From Deltaproteobacteria bacterium (GTDB lineage: Bacteria > Lernaellota > Lernaellaia > JACKCT01): a DNA stretch of 64,000 nucleotides. The stretch spans positions 62,001 to 126,000 of the forward strand of contig JAOSJX010000005.1 of the NCBI GenBank assembly GCA_027493875.1, given 5' to 3'. The notes under the pieces are model-generated. The model ran no database searches. It was not told where the DNA came from and saw only the letters and a list, made by a program, of their open reading frames with translations. The stretch's first letter is position 1. Each line of letters opens with the position of its first letter. The translations under genes and the position numbers were made by a program. This document shows positions 13,574 to 28,687 of the stretch, piece by piece.

Positions 13574-15519
<1,946 letters not shown>

Positions 15520-16652: not shown

Positions 16653-16678
16653 CCGATGAAAATCAACTCAGCAAGCGA

Positions 16679-18714
16679 TCAACCGCAACCGCAACATCCG
16701 CCGGTGACTTCGCCCTCGCCGGGGTCCTCGTCACCCGGACCGGGATCGGGGCCCGTTTCGGAGTCGTCGTCGTCCGGCTCGGGCTCCGGATCTTCCGCGT
16801 CACCGCAGATATCGAGATGCTCGTCGCATTCCTCGCCCTCGGAGCAAGGGTTGCCGGCGTGCTCGCAGGCGAGCGCGTCCTCGTTGCACACTTCCTCGCC
16901 GTTGCAGAATTGCAGGTCGTCGACGCACGGCGAGCCTTCCGATTCGCAGGCGTCGGTGATCTCGTTGCAGAACTCGTCGCCGTTGCAAAAAACCTCGTCC
17001 TGTTCGCAGGGATCGCCGGTGCTGGCGCAGCGGTTGTTGTCCTCGTCGCAGAATTCCTCGCCGTTGCAGAAGAACGCGTCCTGTCCGCAGTTCGGCACGA
17101 AGAGATGCTTGCATTCCTGGTTGAGCTCGTCGCAGCGCTCCTGGCCGTTGCACCACAGGCCGTCGTCACCGCACGCGGGCTCGTCGGCCGGTTTGCACTC
17201 CTCGTTGGGAATATCGCACCACTCGGCGCCGTTGCAGAAAACGCCGTCGTCGCATTGCGCGTCGTTGGAGCAATGGCAACTATCCTCGCCGTCGCAATCC
17301 TGGTCGATGCCGTCGCACTCGATTTCTTCCGCGCCCGGATAGATCGTCTCGTCCCAGTCGTTGCAATCGTCGCCGCCGCACTGCGGCCCTTCAAAGCCGT
17401 CCTCGTCGTTGTCGCATTCGAGAATGATGCCGTAGAGCGGGATGAACTCCGCCCCGCGACCGTTCCGTAGCTGACGAACACGGACAGCGGCTGCGTGGCG
17501 GTCACGTGCCACTGCGTTTTATTGGAGGCGACCTGCTGATGGCCGCCCTCGCCGAGCGTGCCGCTCCACACCACCACGTCGTCCCCCGGCGCGACGGTCG
17601 CTTTCGTATCCGTCACGACCACGTCGTTGGCGTCCTCGTAGGAGAACAGGTCGATGCGCCCGTCCACGGACGTGAAATAAAAGTTCGTTCCGATGCGCGT
17701 GCCGCCTTCGTCCGCCACGATGTCCATATAGTGATAGCTGGACGTCGTGCCGTTGAACGGATTGACGGACACGGTCACCGTGTCTTCGCTGACCACCTTG
17801 AAGTTCATCTGATTGTAAGTCTGCGACCAGAACTGCCCGGTCTCGAGCGTCCCGGAAAACAGCGTCGCGCCGGTGGAGGCGTTGCTGACCGTGACGTCGT
17901 TGTCGTCCGCGTAGCTCGTGACGATCAGATCGCCCGGGCCGCTGGTCAACCCCATGTACCCGTAGAAGAGCGTTCCGGAAAACAGACCCGTGATGGCCGG
18001 AACGCTGTAGCCGATATCCGAAAAGGACAGCGACGAGACGACTTTGTTCGCGTTGATGCGCAGCCACTTGTTGTTCGCCGCGCTCGGCGACGGGTACCAC
18101 GATTCGCCGGCGTCCAGATACGTGCTGTCGAGCAGGTTGCCGTTGTTGAGGTTATAGACCTGGACGGACGTGTTATCGAGGTAGGCGGTGATGACGTGGG
18201 GGCTCGCGTTGCCGTCGCCGTATTGGTACGAGAAGAAGCGGTTGCCGACGGCCATCGAGTACTGCGTCATGTCGTAGAAGCCGACGATGTTGTCCGTGGC
18301 CGCGCCGACGAGCACGGCGATGAGGTCCGACGCGACGAGCTGGTAGGTCGCCGCGGCGACGCCGGTGAACTGGACGTACTGGCCTTCGTCCACCGTACCC
18401 GTGTGAATCGGCACGCCGGACGAATTAAGGATCGTGTAGTCCGTGTTGTCGATAAAGCCGAACAGGACGATTTCGTCAAACGCGTAGAAATACGAGTTGT
18501 TCGGGTACGGGACGGCCAGAATCGCCTGCGGGTCGGCGGGCCAACTGAAAAAATTCTCCGGGCCGGCCGACTGGTCGTTCGCCTCGGTGCCGGGAATAGC
18601 GCCGGTGGCCTGTTTCAACGCCGGAGAAGTCTGCAAATCGGCGCTCGGCAGAACGGCCGCCGCCGCCACCGAGGCCGCTAAGGCTAGGATAATAATGAGG
18701 AATGCGTTTCGCAT
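16679..18714 (-). CDS. Secreted MopE-motif Cys-repeat protein, paralog 1
   Basis: ATG 18714 follows GGAGGGAG; residues 1-20 are a signal peptide ([16 protein letters not shown]). Residues 40-400 form a beta-rich domain with internal repeats ([40 protein letters not shown]), distantly like IgGFc-binding N-domains. Next comes a MopE-like metal-binding motif ([38 protein letters not shown]). Five Cys repeats built on (F/W)CNGxExC follow, then a Glu/Asp/Pro-rich linker and the tail [11 protein letters not shown]. One frame break lies near 17465 (FVSYGT continues as [10 protein letters not shown]). MopE motifs bind Cu or Ca in secreted proteins. It is probably a surface protein. It is the last of three tandem paralogs. 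Confidence 0.82.
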
Positions 18715-18813
18715 GACGTGACTCCCTCCACCATCGACACGACGGAAAAACGGACGGGGGCGTCGGCCCCGGTCCATGGGCCCCTGATTTATCCCGCTAA
18801 TTAAGGGCCTTGT

Positions 18814-20850
18814 CTACCCCCCGCAGGCGCAGGTGTCGGAGGAGCCTTCGCCGCCGCCGCCACCGCCTGGGCCGTCATCATCGGCGCCGAGGGAATCGTC
18901 ATCGTCGGCGGCATCGCCGGCTGAATCATCGTCCAGACCGGCGGAATCGTCGTCCTCGCCGCCGACCGTATCGTCGTCCGAGACGCTGTCGTCGTCGCCC
19001 GTGTCGTCATCCGTCGGAGGAACCGTCGTCGTGGTCGTCGTCGAGGGCGCGGTGACCGTGGTGGAGGTCGTCGTGGTCGTTGTGATTGTCGTCGTGGTCG
19101 ATGACAGGCACTGGTCTCCCGTCTCGTCGCAAACCTCATCCTGCGCGCAGGGTGCTGTTCCAGCCCAACACTGATCGCCCGATTCTTCGCAGGTTTCCTG
19201 CCCGTTGCAAAACGCGCCGTCGTCGCAGGGGTTTCCCGCATGAACGCAAATATCGTTTGCCTCGTTGCAGGACTCCGCCCCGTTACAGTAGAGGCCGTCG
19301 TCTTGGCACGGCACGGCGGTTGCGACGCATTGGTCGCCGGTCTCGTCGCACGACTCGACGCCGTTGCAGTATTGCCCGTCGTCCGGGCACGGGGGCGTTC
19401 CCGTTTCGCAAAGGCCAGTGCCCGTGTTGCACGTTTCCGCGCCGTTGCAAAACAGGCCGTCGGCGCAATCCCCGTTCGTGTGGCACGGGCAATCGTCCTC
19501 GCCATCGCAGTCCTGGTCGATGTCGTCGCACTCGATTTCCGACGCGCCGGGATAGGAATCTCCGTCAAAATCATCGCAGTCGTCGCCCGCGCACTGCGGC
19601 CCGTCCACGCCGTCCTCGTCGTTGTCGCAAGAAGACACGGCGCCGAAGAATGTTACGAACTCCGCGCCGGCGATGTCCCCGTAGCTGTGCATCACGGAAA
19701 CAGGCTTGGTGGAAGCGACATGCCATTGCGTCGGGTTGGCGCTGACCTGTTGATGGCCGCCTTGGTCCAGCGTGCCGGTCCACTCCACGACATCGTCCCC
19801 CGTATCCGTGGTCGCCTGCGTATCGGTGACGGTGACGTCGTTGTCGTCGGCGTATGAAATAATGTCGAGCGTGCCGTTGACGGAAAGGAAATAGAAGTCC
19901 GTCCCAAGACGTGTCCCGCTCCGGTCCACCGCAACGTCCATGTAATGATAGTCAGGCACCGTGCCGCTGTAGGGGCCGACCGTCACGGAAACGTCGGCGG
20001 TGCTTGTTACCGTAAAATACAACTCCTGATAGACCTGATTCCAGAATTCCCCCTCGTTCAGCGTCCCCGCCCAGAGAACGACATCGGTTTCGCTGTTTTT
20101 CACCGTGACCGTATTGCCGTCCGTATAGCTCGTGACGACCAGATCGCCGTCGCCCGACCGGTCGCCCATATAACCGTGGAAAAGCGTGCCGGCGAAAAGC
20201 CCCGTGGCGGACGGGACCGCGTAGCCGATATCGGAGAAGTTGAGGACCGAGACGTCCTTGTCGGCGACGGTCTTCAGAAATTTATTCGCGCCGGTCGACG
20301 GCGGCAATTCATAGTGGTCGCCCGCGTCGAGTGCGCCACTCCCGAGGAGAACCTCGGTATCCATGTCGTAGATCTCCACGGTCGTCGCGTCGTGATACGC
20401 GAAGACGATCTGCCGATCGAGATTATCGAAAGGCCCGCCGCGAAATTGAAAAGAGTAAAACTTGGTTCCGGCCCCAAGCGAGAGATCGTTCAGCGCATAG
20501 TAACCCACGATATCGTTATCAGCCGCCCCAACGAGCGCGCCGACGAAATCGGACGCCTCCACGCGGTAGAGACCGCTCGCGACGCTGAAGGCGGCGTGAT
20601 CCCCGTCGTCCAACGAGCCGTTTTCCACGATCGTGCCGCCCGCGTCGTAGATCGTAAAGTCCGTTCCGTCATGATAACCGAAGAGAAAAATCTTATCGAA
20701 GGCGTAGAAGTACGCAAAGTTCACTTCCGTTGCCGCCGAGATACCGGGATCGAGGCTCGATACTTCTCCGGGCGACGATAGGGCGGTTCCGCGCAGCGCG
20801 AGGAGCGCCGCCATCCCCAAAATACCGACGAGACGATACGCAAGACGCAT
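18814..20850 (-). CDS. Secreted MopE-motif Cys-repeat protein, paralog 2 (intact)
   Basis: 678 residues in one frame, the best reference for the family here. ATG 20850 has GGGAGG upstream and a signal peptide at 1-25. The beta domain spans about 35-395 (FAYFYAFDKIFLFGYHDGTD, DYHYMDVAVDRSGTRLGTDF). The MopE motif CDNDEDGVDGPQCAGDDC to [13 protein letters not shown] is near 415-470. Four (F/Y)CNGxExC repeats follow. It then differs from its paralogs by a Thr-rich stretch (STTTTITTTTTTSTTVTAPS) and a long Asp-rich acidic region. It ends EGSSDTCACGG, a variant of the GGCCGCG tail. The Thr/Asp segments look like a spacer, possibly glycosylated or Ca-binding. A secreted or surface-anchored adhesin or metal-binding coat protein is inferred. 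Confidence 0.85.
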   Translation of the reverse strand: MRLAYRLVGILGMAALLALRGTALSSPGEVSSLDPGISAATEVNFAYFYAFDKIFLFGYHDGTDFTIYDAGGTIVENGSLDDGDHAAFSVASGLYRVEASDFVGALVGAADNDIVGYYALNDLSLGAGTKFYSFQFRGGPFDNLDRQIVFAYHDATTVEIYDMDTEVLLGSGALDAGDHYELPPSTGANKFLKTVADKDVSVLNFSDIGYAVPSATGLFAGTLFHGYMGDRSGDGDLVVTSYTDGNTVTVKNSETDVVLWAGTLNEGEFWNQVYQELYFTVTSTADVSVTVGPYSGTVPDYHYMDVAVDRSGTRLGTDFYFLSVNGTLDIISYADDNDVTVTDTQATTDTGDDVVEWTGTLDQGGHQQVSANPTQWHVASTKPVSVMHSYGDIAGAEFVTFFGAVSSCDNDEDGVDGPQCAGDDCDDFDGDSYPGASEIECDDIDQDCDGEDDCPCHTNGDCADGLFCNGAETCNTGTGLCETGTPPCPDDGQYCNGVESCDETGDQCVATAVPCQDDGLYCNGAESCNEANDICVHAGNPCDDGAFCNGQETCEESGDQCWAGTAPCAQDEVCDETGDQCLSSTTTTITTTTTTSTTVTAPSTTTTTTVPPTDDDTGDDDSVSDDDTVGGEDDDSAGLDDDSAGDAADDDDSLGADDDGPGGGGGGEGSSDTCACGG

Positions 20851-20894
20851 GCGTCCCTCCCTTCATATCGACCCCTGATTTATCAACACAACCC

Positions 20895-20921
20895 GCCGGG
20901 CGGTTGGTTAACCCGCCCGGC
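20895..20921 (-). terminator. Hairpin between paralogs 2 and 3
   Basis: GCCGGGCGG, loop of 9 bases, CCGCCCGGC: a 9-bp perfect stem 28 bases past the stop of paralog 3, so the three paralogs may be separate transcription units. Confidence 0.65.
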
Positions 20922-20948
20922 CTTCACAACATCAATTCAATGGCGGCC

Positions 20949-22978
20949 TCACCCGCAGCCGCAGCAGCCGCCGGTCACTTCACCCTTGGCCGATTCTTCT
21001 TCGCCGACCGGTTCGATCTCTTCCGTGTCGTCGTCTCCGAATTCCGGCTCGTCGATATCCGGCGGGATGCACTCGTCGCCGTCCTCGTCGCACGTATCGC
21101 CGTCTGGGCACGGATTGCCGGTGTGCGCGCAGATGTCGAACACCTCGTCGCAGATTTCGTCGCCGTTGCAGTAGTCGCCGTCGTCCGCGCAGCGCGTCCC
21201 CGTCGATTCGCACGCATCCGTCTCCTCGTTGCACGTCTCGTCGCCGTTGCAGAAGAGTTCGTCCTCCGCGCAGGGATCGCCGCTGCTGACGCACTGGTCG
21301 AGGAGATCGTCGCAGGTCTCGACGCCGTTGCAGAACATGCCGTCGTCCGCGCAGTCCGGCACGTCGATGGCCGTGCACTCGGCGTTGAGTTCGTCGCAGC
21401 GTTCGAGGCCGTTGCAGAACAGCCCGTCGTCCGCGCAGGGCGGCGTGCCCGGTTCGCACTCACCCGACACCGTGTTGCAGATTTCCTCGCCGTTGCAGAA
21501 GAAGCCGTCCTGGCACTCGGCATCGGACAGGCACACGCACAGATCCTCGCCGTCGCAATCCTGATCGATGTTGTCGCAAAGAATTTCGTCGGCGCCCGGA
21601 TGCACGGTGTCGTCGAAATCGTCGCAGTCGTCGCCGTCGCATTGCGGCCCGTCGTAACCGTCGTTGTCGTTGTCGCATTCGATGATGATGCCGTAGAGCG
21701 GGATGAATTCCGCGCCGGCGAGCGTGCCGTAGCTGTTGAAAACGGACACGGGTTTCGTCGCCTCCAAATGCCACTGCGTCGGGCTGGAAACGACCTGATG
21801 ATGGCCGCCCTCGTCCAGGTTGCCGGTCCACACGACGATGTCGTCGCCCGGCGGCAGCGTGGCGCGCGTATCCGTCAGCGTAATGTCGTTGTCATCGACG
21901 TACGAAAAGATGTCGAGGCGGCCGTTGACCGACGTAAAGTAAAATTCCGTGCCGATGCGCGTGCCGCCGCGGTCCACGGCGATGTCCATGTAGTGATAGT
22001 TCGGCACGGTGCCGGTGTAGGGATCGACCGTGACGGACACATCCTTGGTGCTCTCCACCGTAAAGAATAGAACGCTGTAGACGCTGGTCCACATCTGCCC
22101 TTTGGCCAGCGTGCCGCTCCACAGCGTGTTGCCGTTGTTGCTGTTCTTGACGGTGACGAAGTTGCCGTCTTCATAGCTCGTGACGGTCAGATTCCCGTCG
22201 CCGGACCGGTCCCCCATGTAGCCGTGAAAATTCGTGCCCGTAAACAGGCCGTTTTCCGACGGGACGGCGTAACCGATGTCGGAAAAGTTCAACACGGAGA
22301 CGGGCCGGTTCGTGATGGTCTTCAGATACTTGTTCGCGCCGACGCGCGGGTGAGCTCGAAATGCTTTCCGGCGTTGATGATCGCGCTGTCGAGGAGAGCC
22401 CCGTTGTTCATGTTGTAGATTTGAACAATCGTCAAATCCTTGTAAGCGAACACGATCTGCCGGTCGAGATTTTCAAAAGCCCCGCCGCGAAACTGATAGG
22501 AATAGAACTTCGTGCCCGTCGCCAAGGAATTCTGGTTGAGGGCGAAGTATCCGACGATATCATCGTCGGCCGTGCCGACGAGAACCGCGATGAGATCGGA
22601 CGAGTCGAGGCGATAGATGCCCGTCGGGACGTCGTAGGCGATATGATCGCCGTCATCCAACGAGCCCGTGTGAATCGGCGTACCCGTTGAGTTGTAGAGC
22701 GTGAAATCCGTGTTGTCGATGTACCCGAACAGAAAGACCCGGTCGAACGCATAGAAGTAAGACGTGTTCGGGAACGGCACGGCCGCGACGCTCGGATCGG
22801 GCCAGTTGGGAATCGTTATTTCGAGAAAATCTTCCGCGACCCGCGGCTTTTCCGGCAGGGCGCCGTCAACGGATTTCTCCGTGGGCGTTACGGCCTTCGA
22901 CGTGAAGCTCGCGACGGACACCGCGGCGCCGATAAACAGGATCACAACGGCAATGGAAATTACCTGAGCGGCCTTCAT
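20949..22978 (-). CDS. Secreted MopE-motif Cys-repeat protein, paralog 3
   Basis: ATG 22978 (MKAAQVISIAVVILFIGAA) follows GGGGGAA; an upstream in-frame start is less convincing. It has the same domain order as its neighbours: signal peptide, beta domain (YFYAFDRVFLFGYIDNTDFT, NYHYMDIAVDRGGTRIGTEF), MopE motif (CDNDNDGYDGPQCDGDDC, then [13 protein letters not shown]), five (F/Y)CNGxExC repeats, an acidic linker and the tail [12 protein letters not shown], identical at its end to paralog 1. One frame break lies near 22350 (NAGKHFEL into the GANKYLKTI frame). Conservation between copies is highest in the beta domain and MopE motif, while linkers diverge. This is the usual pattern of tandem duplication with diversifying spacers. 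Confidence 0.82.
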
Positions 22979-23099
22979 ACTTTCCCCCACCAAAGATGAC
23001 AAGAAACGATACACCAACGAGCGTAGGACGCAAGTATTTCCTTATCTTTTTCGGAAGATTTGGAAGTTTTGGGTGGACCGGCGCGGCCCGCCGATTGAC

Positions 23100-24532
23100 C
23101 TACGAATCCAATCGATCGCGCAAAAGCTGTTGCGCTATCTGGGGATTCGCCTGCCCCCGGCTTTTCTTCATCACCTGGCCGACGAAATAACCGAAAACCT
23201 GCGCTTTTCCGCCCTTGTATTGCTCGACTTGCGTCGGGCTTTCCGAGATGACCTCGTCCACGATGGCGGCGATCGCCCCTTCGTCCGAGATCTGCTGAAC
23301 GCCCATCGCCGCCACGATCTTCTCCGGATCGTCCGGCGTCTCGAACATCTTGGCGAATACGTCCTTGGCGATTTTGCCCGTGATCTTTCGCCGGCCACAA
23401 GCTTGATCAATGAACGCAGCCGTTCCGGTTCGATCGGATTGGAAGCCATCTCCAATTCGCGCTGCTTGAGCGCGCCCAATAGCTCCGACGACACCCAGTT
23501 CGCCGCCGTTTTGGCGGGAACGTCCTCGTCCACGACGCGCTCGAAATAGTCCGAAAGCTCTTCGTCGGCGGTGAGCACCTCGGCGTCGTAGGCGGACAGG
23601 CCGAGGTCGTCCATATAGCGCCGCGTGCGCTGCCAGGGAAGCTCGGGCAACGCGCCCCGCGCCTGTTCAACAAGATCGTTCTCCACAATCAGCGGCAGCA
23701 GGTCGGGGTCCGGAAAATAGCGGTAGTCGTGCGCTTCTTCCTTGCCGCGCATGGAGTAGGTCCGCCCCTTCTCCGCGTCGTAGAGGCGCGTTTCCTGAAC
23801 GACGACCTCGTGGTGTTGCAACATATCCCACTGGCGCGCCGCCTCGTAGTCGAGGGCGCGGGCGATGAAGCGGAAGCTGTTGATGTTCTTGAGCTCGGTG
23901 CGCGTTCCGAAAGGATCGTCGGGTGTCGGACGGACGGACACGTTGGCGTCGCAGCGCAGCGACCCCTCTTCCATGTTTCCGTCGCTGATGCCCAGCGAAC
24001 GCACCAGGCGGCGCATCGTCTTGAGGTACGCCGTCGCCTCGTCGGCGCTGCGAAAATCGGGCTCGGAGACGACCTCAAGCAGCGGCACGCCCGTGCGGTT
24101 GAAGTCGATGAGCGATCCTCCGCCGCCGTGCATCGACTTGCCGGCGTCTTCCTCGATGTGAATGCGCGTGATGCCGAATTCCCGCCACGCGCCGTCGATG
24201 AGGACGGGCAGTTTTCCGTGCTCGCAGAGGGGCTTGTCGTACTGGCTGATCTGATAGCCTTTCGGCAGGTCGGGGTAGAAATAATTTTTGCGCGCGAAAA
24301 CGGACTCGCGGTTGATCGCGCAGCCGGTGGCGAGGCCGAGCAGCACCGCCATCTCGACGACTCGCCGGTTGAGGACGGGCAACATCCCCGGCATCCCCAT
24401 ACACACGGGGCACACCTGCGAGTTTTCACCCGCGCCGAAATCCGTCGGGCACGCGCAGAACGCTTTCGTGCGCGTCGCGAGCTGCACGTGCACTTCCAGG
24501 CCGATGACGATGTCGTATTCGCGCGCCGCCAT
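23100..24532 (-). CDS. gatB: Asp-tRNA(Asn)/Glu-tRNA(Gln) amidotransferase subunit B, one frame break
   Basis: GatB binds and phosphorylates the misacylated tRNA for amidation. The start ATG 24532 ([20 protein letters not shown]) overlaps the gatA stop as TGATG and has GGAGG just ahead. Zinc cysteines are seen in [10 protein letters not shown] and [16 protein letters not shown]. Kinase-domain signatures include [16 protein letters not shown]-type sequence (here [11 protein letters not shown]), HIEEDAGK and [13 protein letters not shown]. The C-terminal tail domain ([40 protein letters not shown]) comes after a frame break near 23395. About 478 codons, the usual size. Last gene of gatCAB; its presence implies indirect Gln and/or Asn tRNA charging. 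Confidence 0.95.
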
Positions 24533-25999
24533 CACTCGCCTCCGAGCTTGGGCCGTGGCGCCGGCGGCAGCGCGGCTTCCATCGCGTGCGCCGCGCGGAG
24601 CAGCGTCGCCTCGTCCATCGGCCGGCCGATGACCTGCAGCCCGATCGGCAGCCCGCCGTCGTCCGTGCCGCACGGCATGGACAGCCCGGGCAGGCCCGCG
24701 AGGTTCACCGGAATCGTCAGGATGTCCGAGAGGTACATCTTGAGCGGATCGTCGGTGCGCTCGCCGAGTTTGAAGGCCGTTTCCGGCGCGGTGGGCGCAA
24801 AGATCACGTCAACCTTTTCGAACGCGTTTTCAAAATCGCGGCCGATGAGCGTGCGCACCTGGCTGGCGCGGCCGTAGTAGGCGTCGTAGTACCCCGCCGA
24901 CAGCGCGAACACGCCGAGCAGAATGCGCCGCCGCACCTCGTCGCCGAAACCGGCGGAACGCGTGCGCGTGTACATGCCGGCCAGGTCGGACGCCTGCTCG
25001 CGCAACCCGTAACGCACGCCGTCGTAGCGCGCGAGATTGCTGGAACATTCCGCCGTCGCGACGACGTAATAGGTGGCGACCGCGTATTTCGTGTGCGGCA
25101 GGGAGATCTCGACGACCTCCGCGCCGAGATCGCGCGCCTTGTCCGCTGCTCCCCGCACGGCGCGCTCGATGGCCGGATCGAGCCCGTCCGTGAAATATTC
25201 GCGCGGCACGCCGACGCGCAGGCCCTTAATATCGCCGGTTAGCGCGGCGGCGAAATCGGGGACGGCTTCGGCATGGCTGGTCGAGTCGTTCGGATCGTGA
25301 CCGCAGATCGCGCCGAGCACGAGGGCCGCGTCTTCCACGTTGCGCGCGAACGGGCCGACCTGATCGAGGCTGCTCGCGTAAGCAATGACGCCCCATCGTG
25401 AGACGCGCCCGTAGGTCGGCTTGACGCCGACGACGCCGCAATGGGCCGCCGGTTGGCGGATCGAGCCGCCGGTGTCCGTCCCGAGCGCCGCCGGCACGAG
25501 CCCGGCCGCGACGGCCGCCGCGCTGCCGGACGACGAACCGCCGGGCACACGTTCCAGGTCGTGCGGATTTTTTCGTGGGGCCGAAGGCGCTGTTCTCGCC
25601 GGACGATCCCATCGCGAACTCGTCCATGTTGAGTTTGCCCAGGCTGATCGCGCCGGCCTCGTCACACAGCTTGCGCACGCACGTCGCCGAATACGGCGGC
25701 GCGAAATCGCCGAGGATGCGGCTGCCCGCCGTGGAGCGCACGTCCTTCGTGCACAACACGTCCTTGAGGCCGACGGGCACGCCGAACAGCTTCGGCACGT
25801 CGGTTTCGCGCGCGCGGCGCGCGTCCGCCTCCTCCGCGAGGCGCAGCGCCTGCTCGCCGGTGACAGTGACGAACGCGTTGAGCTGCGGATCGAGGGCATC
25901 GATGCGTTTGAGGTGCGCGCGAACGAGATCGACCGACGAGACTTCTTTGGAAGCCAGGAGGCGCGCGGCGTTGGCGACGCCGAGTTCGTGGAGCTTCAC
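24532..25999 (-). CDS. gatA: Asp-tRNA(Asn)/Glu-tRNA(Gln) amidotransferase subunit A, one frame break
   Basis: GatA releases ammonia from glutamine for the GatB site. ATG 25999 overlaps the gatC stop by four bases. The amidase-signature triad is present: the catalytic Lys in [11 protein letters not shown], the [14 protein letters not shown] loop, and the nucleophile Ser in [13 protein letters not shown]. The frame breaks near 25565 (SAFGPTKK into [15 protein letters not shown]), just before the Gly/Ser loop and near runs of T and C, and looks artefactual. About 489 codons, as expected. It is translationally coupled on both sides in gatC-gatA-gatB. Confidence 0.95.
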
Positions 26000-26298: not shown

Positions 26299-28687
26299 GA
26301 TGTCCCCGAAAAGACGCGAGGAAAGACAGGCATAATCGCGTTGACACGGTGTGTCAAGGCGCGGCGGGCGTCGCGAACCATGGGTCGGCCCGTTTTACAG
26401 CCAGGGATCTGTGCCAGCGTGAGGGACGGCCACGTGTTATATAAAGCCATCAGATCATTATTCTGGAATTTGACCGAACCGACTTCATTGCCCCACGCAT
26501 CGAATTCTTCAAGGAGCCAATTACCGTCGACGCTTGTCGCTATCATTATTCCTGACAATGTATAATAATATAATATAATTGGATCGCTATCTTCGTCGAA
26601 TACAAGAACGGGATAGAACGCCCAGCCTTCGTCATCGGTAATTTTTGCGTTGGCCCATGAGCCGTCGTTGCGGAAAGCATAATAAACTTCGACTTCGCCA
26701 TAGGATTCTTGTTGCACATAGGTGATGCCGGTGCTCCCTCTGTCTATAGACCACGCAACGGAGAGCTGATCTTTCACCTTCGGTGTGCCGCTGACTTCTT
26801 CGATCTCCCACGTACCGCTCGCGTTGGTCGCATATTGGAGTATTTCCCAGACCGCTCCGTCTGTGAACGCGATATGCGGGAGATCGTCCGCATCCAATGC
26901 AAAGGACACCGAATCGGTCGCCACGCTACCGGCGTCCACGGCGTCGGTCGTCCACGTCCCGCCATCGCGTACCGCAAAAACGATCACGTCGTTCGGGCTC
27001 TCAAACACCGCCCGGTACTTGCCGTCCGATCCCATCGCGAGCGGGTAGCTGCCCGCGAAGTTCCCCGTGATCGGCATCGCCTCGGACGCCCATGTTCCGC
27101 TCTCGTTCGTCACGAACCAGAGCGCCGAGTTGCCGGGATCGCGATAAACGAACGCGGCGTGCCCCGACGCGTCCGCGGCGATGGCCTGCCGACGCAGCCG
27201 GATCGTCCCGGGGAACTCCCATACCGTCTGTTCCCATTCACCGGATCGGTTCGTCTGATAGACGATCTTGTTTTCGCTCCACGCCTTGAACACCACGTGC
27301 GCCGCGCCATCGCCGTCGAACGCCAGCGACGGGTACTCCACCGTCGGCGCGGTATCCACCGTTTCCGTCATCCATGTTCCGTTGCTCTGGATCGACGCGT
27401 ACGCCGAGGCCGTGTATTCCTCCTGCGAAGCGATCAGCAGCCCTTCCGGCGACCACGCGATATCCAGGTAATGCCCGCCCGGTTCGCCCCCCGGGCGCAC
27501 TTCCTCCGCCGTCCACGTCCCGTTTTCGTTCGTCACGTAAAGAACCGGCGCGTATAGAATCGATGAAAAGTCGGTCGCCACCAGATGCGCCGCGCCCGCG
27601 TCGTCCAACACCAGCGACGGAAGGTCCATGTTGAAAAACGGTTCCTCGAACGACCAGCCCAGGAGTCCGCGCGTGCCGTAGCCCAGCGCCGTCGTTGAGA
27701 GATCGACGAACCGGTCGTAGGCCGCGTGCGCTCGCCCTTGACGGTCCAAGGCCACCGACATCCCAAGCCCCACCAGACCGCCGAACTCCAATTGCCACGA
27801 GCCCGTGCGGTTCGGAAATCACCTGCATGGCATACGAAAGCCACTCCGCTGTGCCGCCGATGCCGATAAATACTCGAGCGCCGTCGGCGCTCACCGCGAT
27901 CGAATTGACCGCCACGAGGTCGCCCTGCGCCCAAATCGTTTCACTCGTCCAACAGCCCGATTTATTGGTCGTAACGAACGGTGCGGCTGCTACGACCGCG
28001 AAGGGACGCGATATGAACAAAACCATCGCCATCCAAGGCAAGCGCGGGGTTTTGGGCCACTCAGGCCGGATGAGTCCACCGTCATCGTCCGCCAGAGCCC
28101 GGAGGCGTTCGTCGCGTACTTGAGTTTCCTGGCCCAGATATCCCGATAGGCGAGATGGAGCGAGGCGTTGTCATCAACCGCGATATTCGGCGTCGCCCCC
28201 ACGATGCTGATCACTTCCTCTGTCCAGGAATCCTCGGAATCAGCCGACGCTTTCGAGTAAACGACAACCTGCCGCCCGCGCGCGGCGGCGACGTAAAGCG
28301 TCCCGTCCGGACCGATCGCGGCGGCGACGCCGTCGTGTCCCGGCCGGCCCCCGGCAATCTGCGGTAATGCACGCCCCCTCGGGCGTTAAAAACCGTCCGG
28401 ACAAGACGGGTCAGGGGAGAGTCCCACACCTCGCCGCAGGTATCATCGTCGCCCGTGTCGTCGTCGAGACCGTCATCAAGATCGTCGTCTGGGTGGGTAT
28501 CGTCGTCGGCGCCGTCATCATCGATATCGTCGTTATCGGATTGCGTATCGTCATCCGTCGTTTCGAAACGTCATCGTCGGCCACATCGTCGTCGTCGCCG
28601 CACGAGCAACCCGTCAACGTTCCCGGAATCAAAAAGGCAAAGCGCCGCGACCGTCAGGAGGGTATTCGCTTTCGGGTCGAGGCGCAT
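26295..28687 (-). CDS. Asp-rich lipoprotein with propeller-like repeats, several frame breaks
   Basis: ATG 28687 begins MRLDPKANTLLTVAALCLF. After a break at a T5 run near 28635 it continues LIPGTLTGCSCGDDDDVADD, a lipobox (LTGC) followed by a long Asp-rich linker. Further sense segments are ALPQIAGGRPGHDGVAAAIG, LYVAAARGRQVVVYSK, SIVGATPNIAVDDNASLHLA and, from 27785 on, a long run of repeats such as LSVAWSIDRGSTGITYVQQE and YATNASGTWEIEEVSG. The N-x-S-G-T-W unit, recurring about every 50 residues, suggests a beta-propeller. Breaks lie near 28635, 28550, 28360, 28055 and 27785. The last 40 residues look non-native, so the true stop may lie a little upstream of 26295. It is probably an outer-membrane-anchored surface protein. 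Confidence 0.62.

Follow-up and report, generated by a model that had tools for sequence, protein, structure and literature searches.

The LPXTG, PEP-CTERM, GlyGly-CTERM and MYXO-CTERM tags share a tripartite build: a motif, a transmembrane helix and a basic cluster. The MYXO-CTERM tag of the Myxococcota (TIGR03901) resembles the system described here, in that a C-terminal cysteine motif recurs on dozens of exported proteins in each genome. There, myxosortase removes the helix that comes after the generic GCGC motif, and the cysteine is proposed to be lipidated and the protein delivered to the surface by the type II secretion system (T2SS), with Lgt being a leading but only suspected candidate for the lipidation (PMC11980579). 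Surface lipoproteins that depend on the T2SS need Asn/Asp, Gly or Gly/Asp residues beside the acylated cysteine (PMC12802150). Here, we analyzed a stretch of 64,000 nucleotides (henceforth the window) from a bacterium of the class Lernaellaia, together with the rest of its genome (G000), two genomes from sister genera of the same family (G001 and G002) and four from elsewhere in the class (G003–G006). We found a cysteine tail that is a new variant among C-terminal cysteine sorting signals, and we place at roughly 70% the probability that it serves as a C-terminal sorting and anchoring tag.

The starting point was a set of three minus-strand paralogs that lie head to tail at 16679–22978, as read from the open reading frames (ORFs) of the window. 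Copy B (18814..20850) is intact, with a single ORF of 678 residues; copy C (20949..22978) has one frame change near 22330 and is spread over ORFs 22322–23017 and 20949–22295; copy A (16679..18714, with the ATG preceding the signal peptide taken as its start) has one near 17450 and is spread over ORFs 16663–18777 and 16679–17512. Both frame changes sit in GC-rich sequence and are probably assembly errors because: (i) the orthologs are open, as an intact tandem pair in G002 and a single copy in G001; (ii) other genes of the window identified by eye, namely the SelB-like (14132–15519) and the GatB/GatA-like ones (23171–25999), also look split between frames; (iii) this genome has three Lgt genes, two of them split, while most copies in its relatives are whole; (iv) completeness is 77.8% here as against 99% in the two other genomes of the family. 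The assembly thus seems to contain many indel errors. An alignment of the copies gives beta-domain identities to copy B of 49% for copy A and 69% for part of copy C. The dN/dS values among the copies range from 0.17 to 0.45, those of the A–B and B–C pairs being imprecise as their dS exceeds 1. Nevertheless, the B–C value of 0.17, taken together with the orthologs in two sister genera, excludes chance as an explanation for the triplet. Tandem arrays of tail-bearing genes also occur elsewhere in the same genome (six frames at L082:6884-19659 and three at L077:4943-9278); hence, such amplification is not peculiar to this locus. The triplet itself is an ordinary amplification of a lineage-specific surface protein.

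Each copy presents the same order of elements: a Sec-type signal peptide, a beta domain, a MopE-like segment, a series of CNGxExC repeats, an acidic linker and a cysteine tail. The signal peptides, as read from the minus strand, occupy 22898..22978 in copy C (MKAAQVISIAVVILFIGAAVSVASFTS), 20773..20850 in copy B (MRLAYRLVGILGMAALLALRGTALSS) and 18640..18714 in copy A (25 residues), and a lipobox cysteine is absent from all three. In copy B, the beta domain (19651..20739) comprises four repeats of about 90 residues, as delineated by a low-confidence all-strand model and the alignment of the copies, and belongs to no known family. Downstream of it lie the MopE metal-binding motif (19492..19581), the FCNGxExC repeat stalk (19081..19488, approximate limits), a linker that reads as Thr-rich and then Asp-rich (18835..19080, approximate limits) and the tail (18814..18834). 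Strict CNGxExC repeats number five in copy A, four in copy B and five in copy C. Copies A and C end in the same 11-residue tail before the stop (16679..16714 and 20949..20984, respectively; pattern sites G000:C5:78679-78699 and G000:C5:82949-82969), and copy B ends in a variant with two cysteines, TCACGG-stop; in every copy the acidic linker precedes the tail.

MopE-like DxDxDG segments are found in all three copies, and that of copy B scores above the gathering threshold of the MopE putative metal-binding motif (PF11617; 27.7 bits, cut-off 27) when the segment is searched in isolation, the whole proteins giving no PF11617 match. The triplet proteins are in this respect a larger architecture that holds a short known motif, with the remainder matching no known family. 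The beta repeats, which we had presumed to resemble IgGFc-binding-like repeats, did not bear out that identity, as the isolated domain of copy B recovered no Pfam match at an E-value of 10. An AlphaFold2 model of the domain with the three paralogs as input attained a pLDDT of 59 and a pTM of 0.54, and Foldseek searches with it returned query TM-scores no higher than 0.17 for the PDB matches listed and 0.31 for viral models; since the model is poor and these matches are unusable, we claim no fold. At the sequence level, the sole PDB match was a fibronectin chain (E-value 0.27), a scan of GTDB contigs recovered no relatives, and the domain was seen only in the three genomes of the family (G000, G001 and G002). 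With a beta head on an FCNG disulfide stalk, the triplet proteins may serve as surface adhesins or binding proteins.

The first-pass annotation had described three tandem paralogs of about 675 residues, and the ORFs, the size of copy B, the open orthologs and the dN/dS values all agree with this. Of the architecture that it ascribed to them, the signal peptides (by eye), the repeated beta domain (with four repeats), the MopE motif (as a true PF11617 match) and the FCNG repeats are all present, and the cysteine tail at the extreme C-terminus had been missed, as had the probable artefactual origin of the frame changes. The case that it named as a refutation, a family already described, did not arise, in that neither Pfam nor NCBIfam gave the whole proteins a match of meaningful score; the structural comparison that it proposed for the intact copy yielded a model of the beta domain and no usable match from the fold libraries. 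The idea of a surface-displayed, Cys-rich exoprotein is well supported, and that of a metal-binding coat is neither strengthened nor weakened by our results. The triplet proved to be the wrong unit of interest, for the FCNG module recurs at about 35 further places in the genome and the tail is found on dozens of unrelated proteins.

It was in reading the frames of those other FCNG modules that the terminal motif was first seen on unrelated proteins, usually in the form of a D-rich stretch followed by GGCCGC-stop at the extreme C-terminus. Our genome-wide counts for G000 rest on DNA patterns and fetched stretches. The GCCGC-stop pattern matches G000 at 26 sites and the other genomes of the family at 11 and 27, with one to three in those of the same class and zero to two elsewhere; the reversed control gives zero or one. 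Within the fetched stretches of G000, CCGC closes at least 43 distinct ORFs, with no more than four residues after it, and variants such as DDDGCGC-stop close about 30 more; dozens of tagged ORFs are likewise present in the sister genera. A more permissive pattern (two Asp and a CGC-stop separated by up to 9 bases), the counts of which are inflated by overlapping matches, gives 62, 70 and 62 matches in the family, 6–62 in the rest of the class and usually zero to two in 109 genomes of other phyla, one of which reaches 9, mostly from copies of a single repeat. A strict pattern (DD, then D, E or G, then GCCGC-stop) scanned over 84,980 species, a collection from which close relatives of G000 may be missing, recovered just four matches; all are short frames without an acidic linker, and we rejected them as chance occurrences. 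Among the papers searched, none was found to describe such a C-terminal Cys tag.

In a GC-rich genome with a frameshifted assembly, one might suspect the tail and the D-rich stretches of being low-complexity artefacts, produced when GC-rich sequence is translated in the wrong frame. Yet the CCGC motif is spelled in 15 ways at the codon level across 73 tagged ORFs, which implies conservation at the level of the protein sequence, orthologous tails are present in two other genomes, signal peptides lie in the same frame as the tails and the reversed patterns are nearly absent; we regard such an artefact as scarcely credible. Judged from sequence, the tag is real: it occupies the very end of the chain, its amino-acid sequence is conserved, and the exported proteins that bear it have passengers unrelated to one another. 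A clear signal peptide is present in 19 of the 21 tagged ORFs of G002, and the passengers include Kelch, NHL-like propeller, subtilase, GH2-like glycosidase and FG-GAP proteins. This diversity bears on a reading of the tail as a metal-binding or redox site, in which the MopE motif and the tail would together load metal, in the spirit of the metal-binding coat of the first-pass annotation. The PF11617 match in copy B and the standing of Cys and Asp as metal ligands are compatible with such a site; nevertheless, we find this reading of the tail very unlikely because the MopE motif is restricted to a triplet-like minority, the tail is also seen on Kelch, protease and glycosidase-like proteins, and a ligand site would not have to lie always at the extreme C-terminus.

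Bearing on anchoring are the choice-of-anchor domains, which are so named because they occur beside whatever anchoring signal an organism uses. Four tagged proteins contain such domains with scores above cut-off: choice-of-anchor J (NF038128) in one at L125, and choice-of-anchor Z (NF058597) in two at L155 and one at L158. The signal that adjoins them here is the tail, which matches no NCBIfam tail model; therefore, the tail occupies the place of the anchor. A further tagged protein has a match, below the cut-offs, to a C-terminal part of M36 peptidases of the myxosortase-dependent and rhombosortase-dependent types.

With MYXO-CTERM the tail shares a short, GCGC-like Cys signature, in the form of CCGC or CGC at the extreme C-terminus. 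However, a transmembrane helix and an Arg-rich cluster follow the signature in MYXO-CTERM, whereas the tagged chains end zero to four residues after the cysteine and have no such cluster. TIGR03901 matched neither the triplet nor the 27 tagged proteins from relatives that were scanned, and the myxosortase MrtX (NF040593) stayed below cut-off in all seven genomes of the class (best score 112 bits as against 180, with no match in G001). As the helix, the basic cluster and an MrtX above cut-off were each looked for and not found, we reject the tail as a canonical MYXO-CTERM and claim no membership in that family; a dedicated processing enzyme for the tag was not found either. Rather, the tagged genes encode an approximation of the MYXO-CTERM product once it has been cleaved. 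Canonical MYXO-CTERM proteins that score above cut-off are also present in every genome of the class, in numbers from one to a few. In G000, the canonical-like protein at L133 (G000:C3:24104-24205) has the same acidic stretch before CGC, followed by a helix and RRR, and another with a helix and an Arg end lies at G000:C25:4013-4951, where three matches occur close together on C25. Further afield, eukaryotic Rab proteins are prenylated at C-terminal CC/CXC motifs, and there too a flexible tail finishes in a cluster of cysteines that accept lipid; this prenylation is cytosolic, and we draw only an analogy and claim no homology.

A second line of evidence comes from the Asp-rich stretches that are common throughout the class and that either follow an N-terminal lipobox cysteine or precede a C-terminal Cys cluster. 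The former arrangement, with a long Asp-rich stretch directly after the lipobox cysteine, is exemplified by L022:4215-6080 and by many loci of G003–G006 (e.g., L160, L161, L166 and L170). Of 89 D-rich ORFs from the six other genomes of the class, automated classification placed 35 as having an ordinary signal and a tail, 30 a lipobox without a tail, 4 both, 10 an ordinary signal without a tail and 10 no signal that could be found; as the stretches were partly chosen for the tag, the ratio of these classes is meaningless and only the mutual exclusion of lipobox and tail among the signal-bearing ORFs counts (Fisher p 4e-9). On inspection by eye, eight of the 10 ORFs with an ordinary signal and no tail look like missed lipoboxes (e.g., LPSC and PLGC) and one has a C-terminal helix with a basic end; three of the four with both look like ordinary signals with the cysteine inside the hydrophobic core. 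In stretches of G000 that were not chosen for the tag, a Cys cluster ends four of seven acidic C-termini as against 13 of 1007 others (p 2e-6). Given this enrichment and the exclusion, the tail behaves as the alternative to the lipobox in D-rich exported proteins. A lipobox and an acidic Cys tail (ASCGCGC-stop) clearly coincide in a single protein, encoded at L222:6599-8671 in G002 just upstream of an Lgt gene of the second group described below; this and the variant two-Cys tail of copy B tell against the anchoring-tag reading. The same pairing of a cysteine with an acidic stretch marks classical lipoproteins whose surface-sorting residues are acidic or Asn/Asp (InvL and PulA among those of the T2SS, and the lipoprotein export signal of the Bacteroidota). 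In the tagged proteins, by contrast, the cysteine lies at the opposite end of the chain, the signal peptide is ordinary and a signal peptidase II site is absent.

This mirror arrangement also weighs on two other accounts of the tail. It might be a cross-linking or docking handle whose cysteines pair through disulfides with those of its counterparts or of a surface layer rich in Cys, giving a coat without lipid, as could be suspected from the strictly Cys and Gly make-up of the tail and the wealth of disulfide-type FCNG repeats in the triplet and several other tagged proteins. However, most tagged proteins lack these repeats, and such a handle would need neither an acidic stretch and cysteine that mirror the lipoproteins of the same genomes nor the exclusion of the lipobox; accordingly, we hold it to be unlikely. 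Alternatively, the tail might direct secretion into the medium (e.g., through a type II system) or be removed in the course of secretion, leaving soluble proteins. GspD secretin matches of the T2SS in all seven genomes of the class (scoring above cut-off in six; that of G002 is divided between two contigs) would accord with this, as would passengers that include hydrolases typical of secreted enzymes; but a soluble fate is distinctly improbable, since the tail keeps company with choice-of-anchor domains and mirrors the layout of lipoproteins, both of which speak for anchoring.

Turning to the enzymes that might act on an anchoring tag of this kind, we found three Lgt (PF01790) loci in each of the seven genomes of the class. 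Only 4 of the 109 other genomes have three or more matches, most having one or two; as the excess is confined to a single clade, it points to one evolutionary event. Setting aside a frameshifted copy of G000 and a divergent one of G003, and allowing for the weak support of some forks, the copies fall into three groups: I (L213–L217, L219, L231), II (L222–L224, L227–L229) and III (L218, L220, L221, L225, L226, L232), with one member of each per genome in G001, G002 and G004–G006. Group I adjoins genes that read as lspA-like and ileS-like in several genomes and is likely to be the ordinary enzyme. Groups II and III are located elsewhere and retain the residues that are invariant across all three groups. 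Their neighborhoods are diverse, leading us to reject a dedicated tag operon, and their linkage to tagged genes is not consistent. The divergent copy of G003 (L230:8301-9155) has NFFNSE in place of the GCC motif.

What the head domain does, whether and by which enzyme the tail is lipidated, and how the proteins are secreted are all matters of inference. Briefly, a tagged protein would be exported by Sec with ordinary cleavage of its signal peptide; one or more of the tail cysteines would then be modified, most likely with lipid, by one of the extra Lgt-family transferases; and the protein might be delivered to the surface through the T2SS, for which the secretin matches in all seven genomes also count, with the acidic stretch acting as it does in T2SS-dependent surface lipoproteins. 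In the triplet proteins, the C-terminal tag would then tether to the cell surface a chain composed of a beta head, a MopE motif and a disulfide stalk of FCNG repeats. That an Lgt paralog lipidates the tail strikes us as somewhat less likely than not, the weak point being how a membrane transferase would meet a tail without a helix. The broader proposal that this lineage lipidates exported proteins at extreme C-terminal cysteines, by means of dedicated Lgt paralogs and with no transmembrane helix in the tag, is put forward tentatively, as something that may well turn out otherwise.

The potential interest of the tag lies in its economy: it consists only of an acidic spacer and a terminal Cys cluster, is carried by dozens of proteins per genome and is interchangeable with the lipobox. 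If the above proposal is true, the modification step would be separated from the membrane helix, and C-terminal Cys lipidation would be the mirror image of the classical lipoprotein pathway, needing neither signal peptidase II nor a sorting protease. This bears on the question of which enzyme acts on the MYXO-CTERM cysteine, and the three Lgt paralogs make a genetic and biochemical test direct. The tag also gives a probable location to many proteins annotated without a function in a poorly known phylum. Within the window, one more short minus-strand frame with a long Asp-rich stretch (DDDxDDD) at 28211–28570 is possibly a fragment of another D-rich exported protein.
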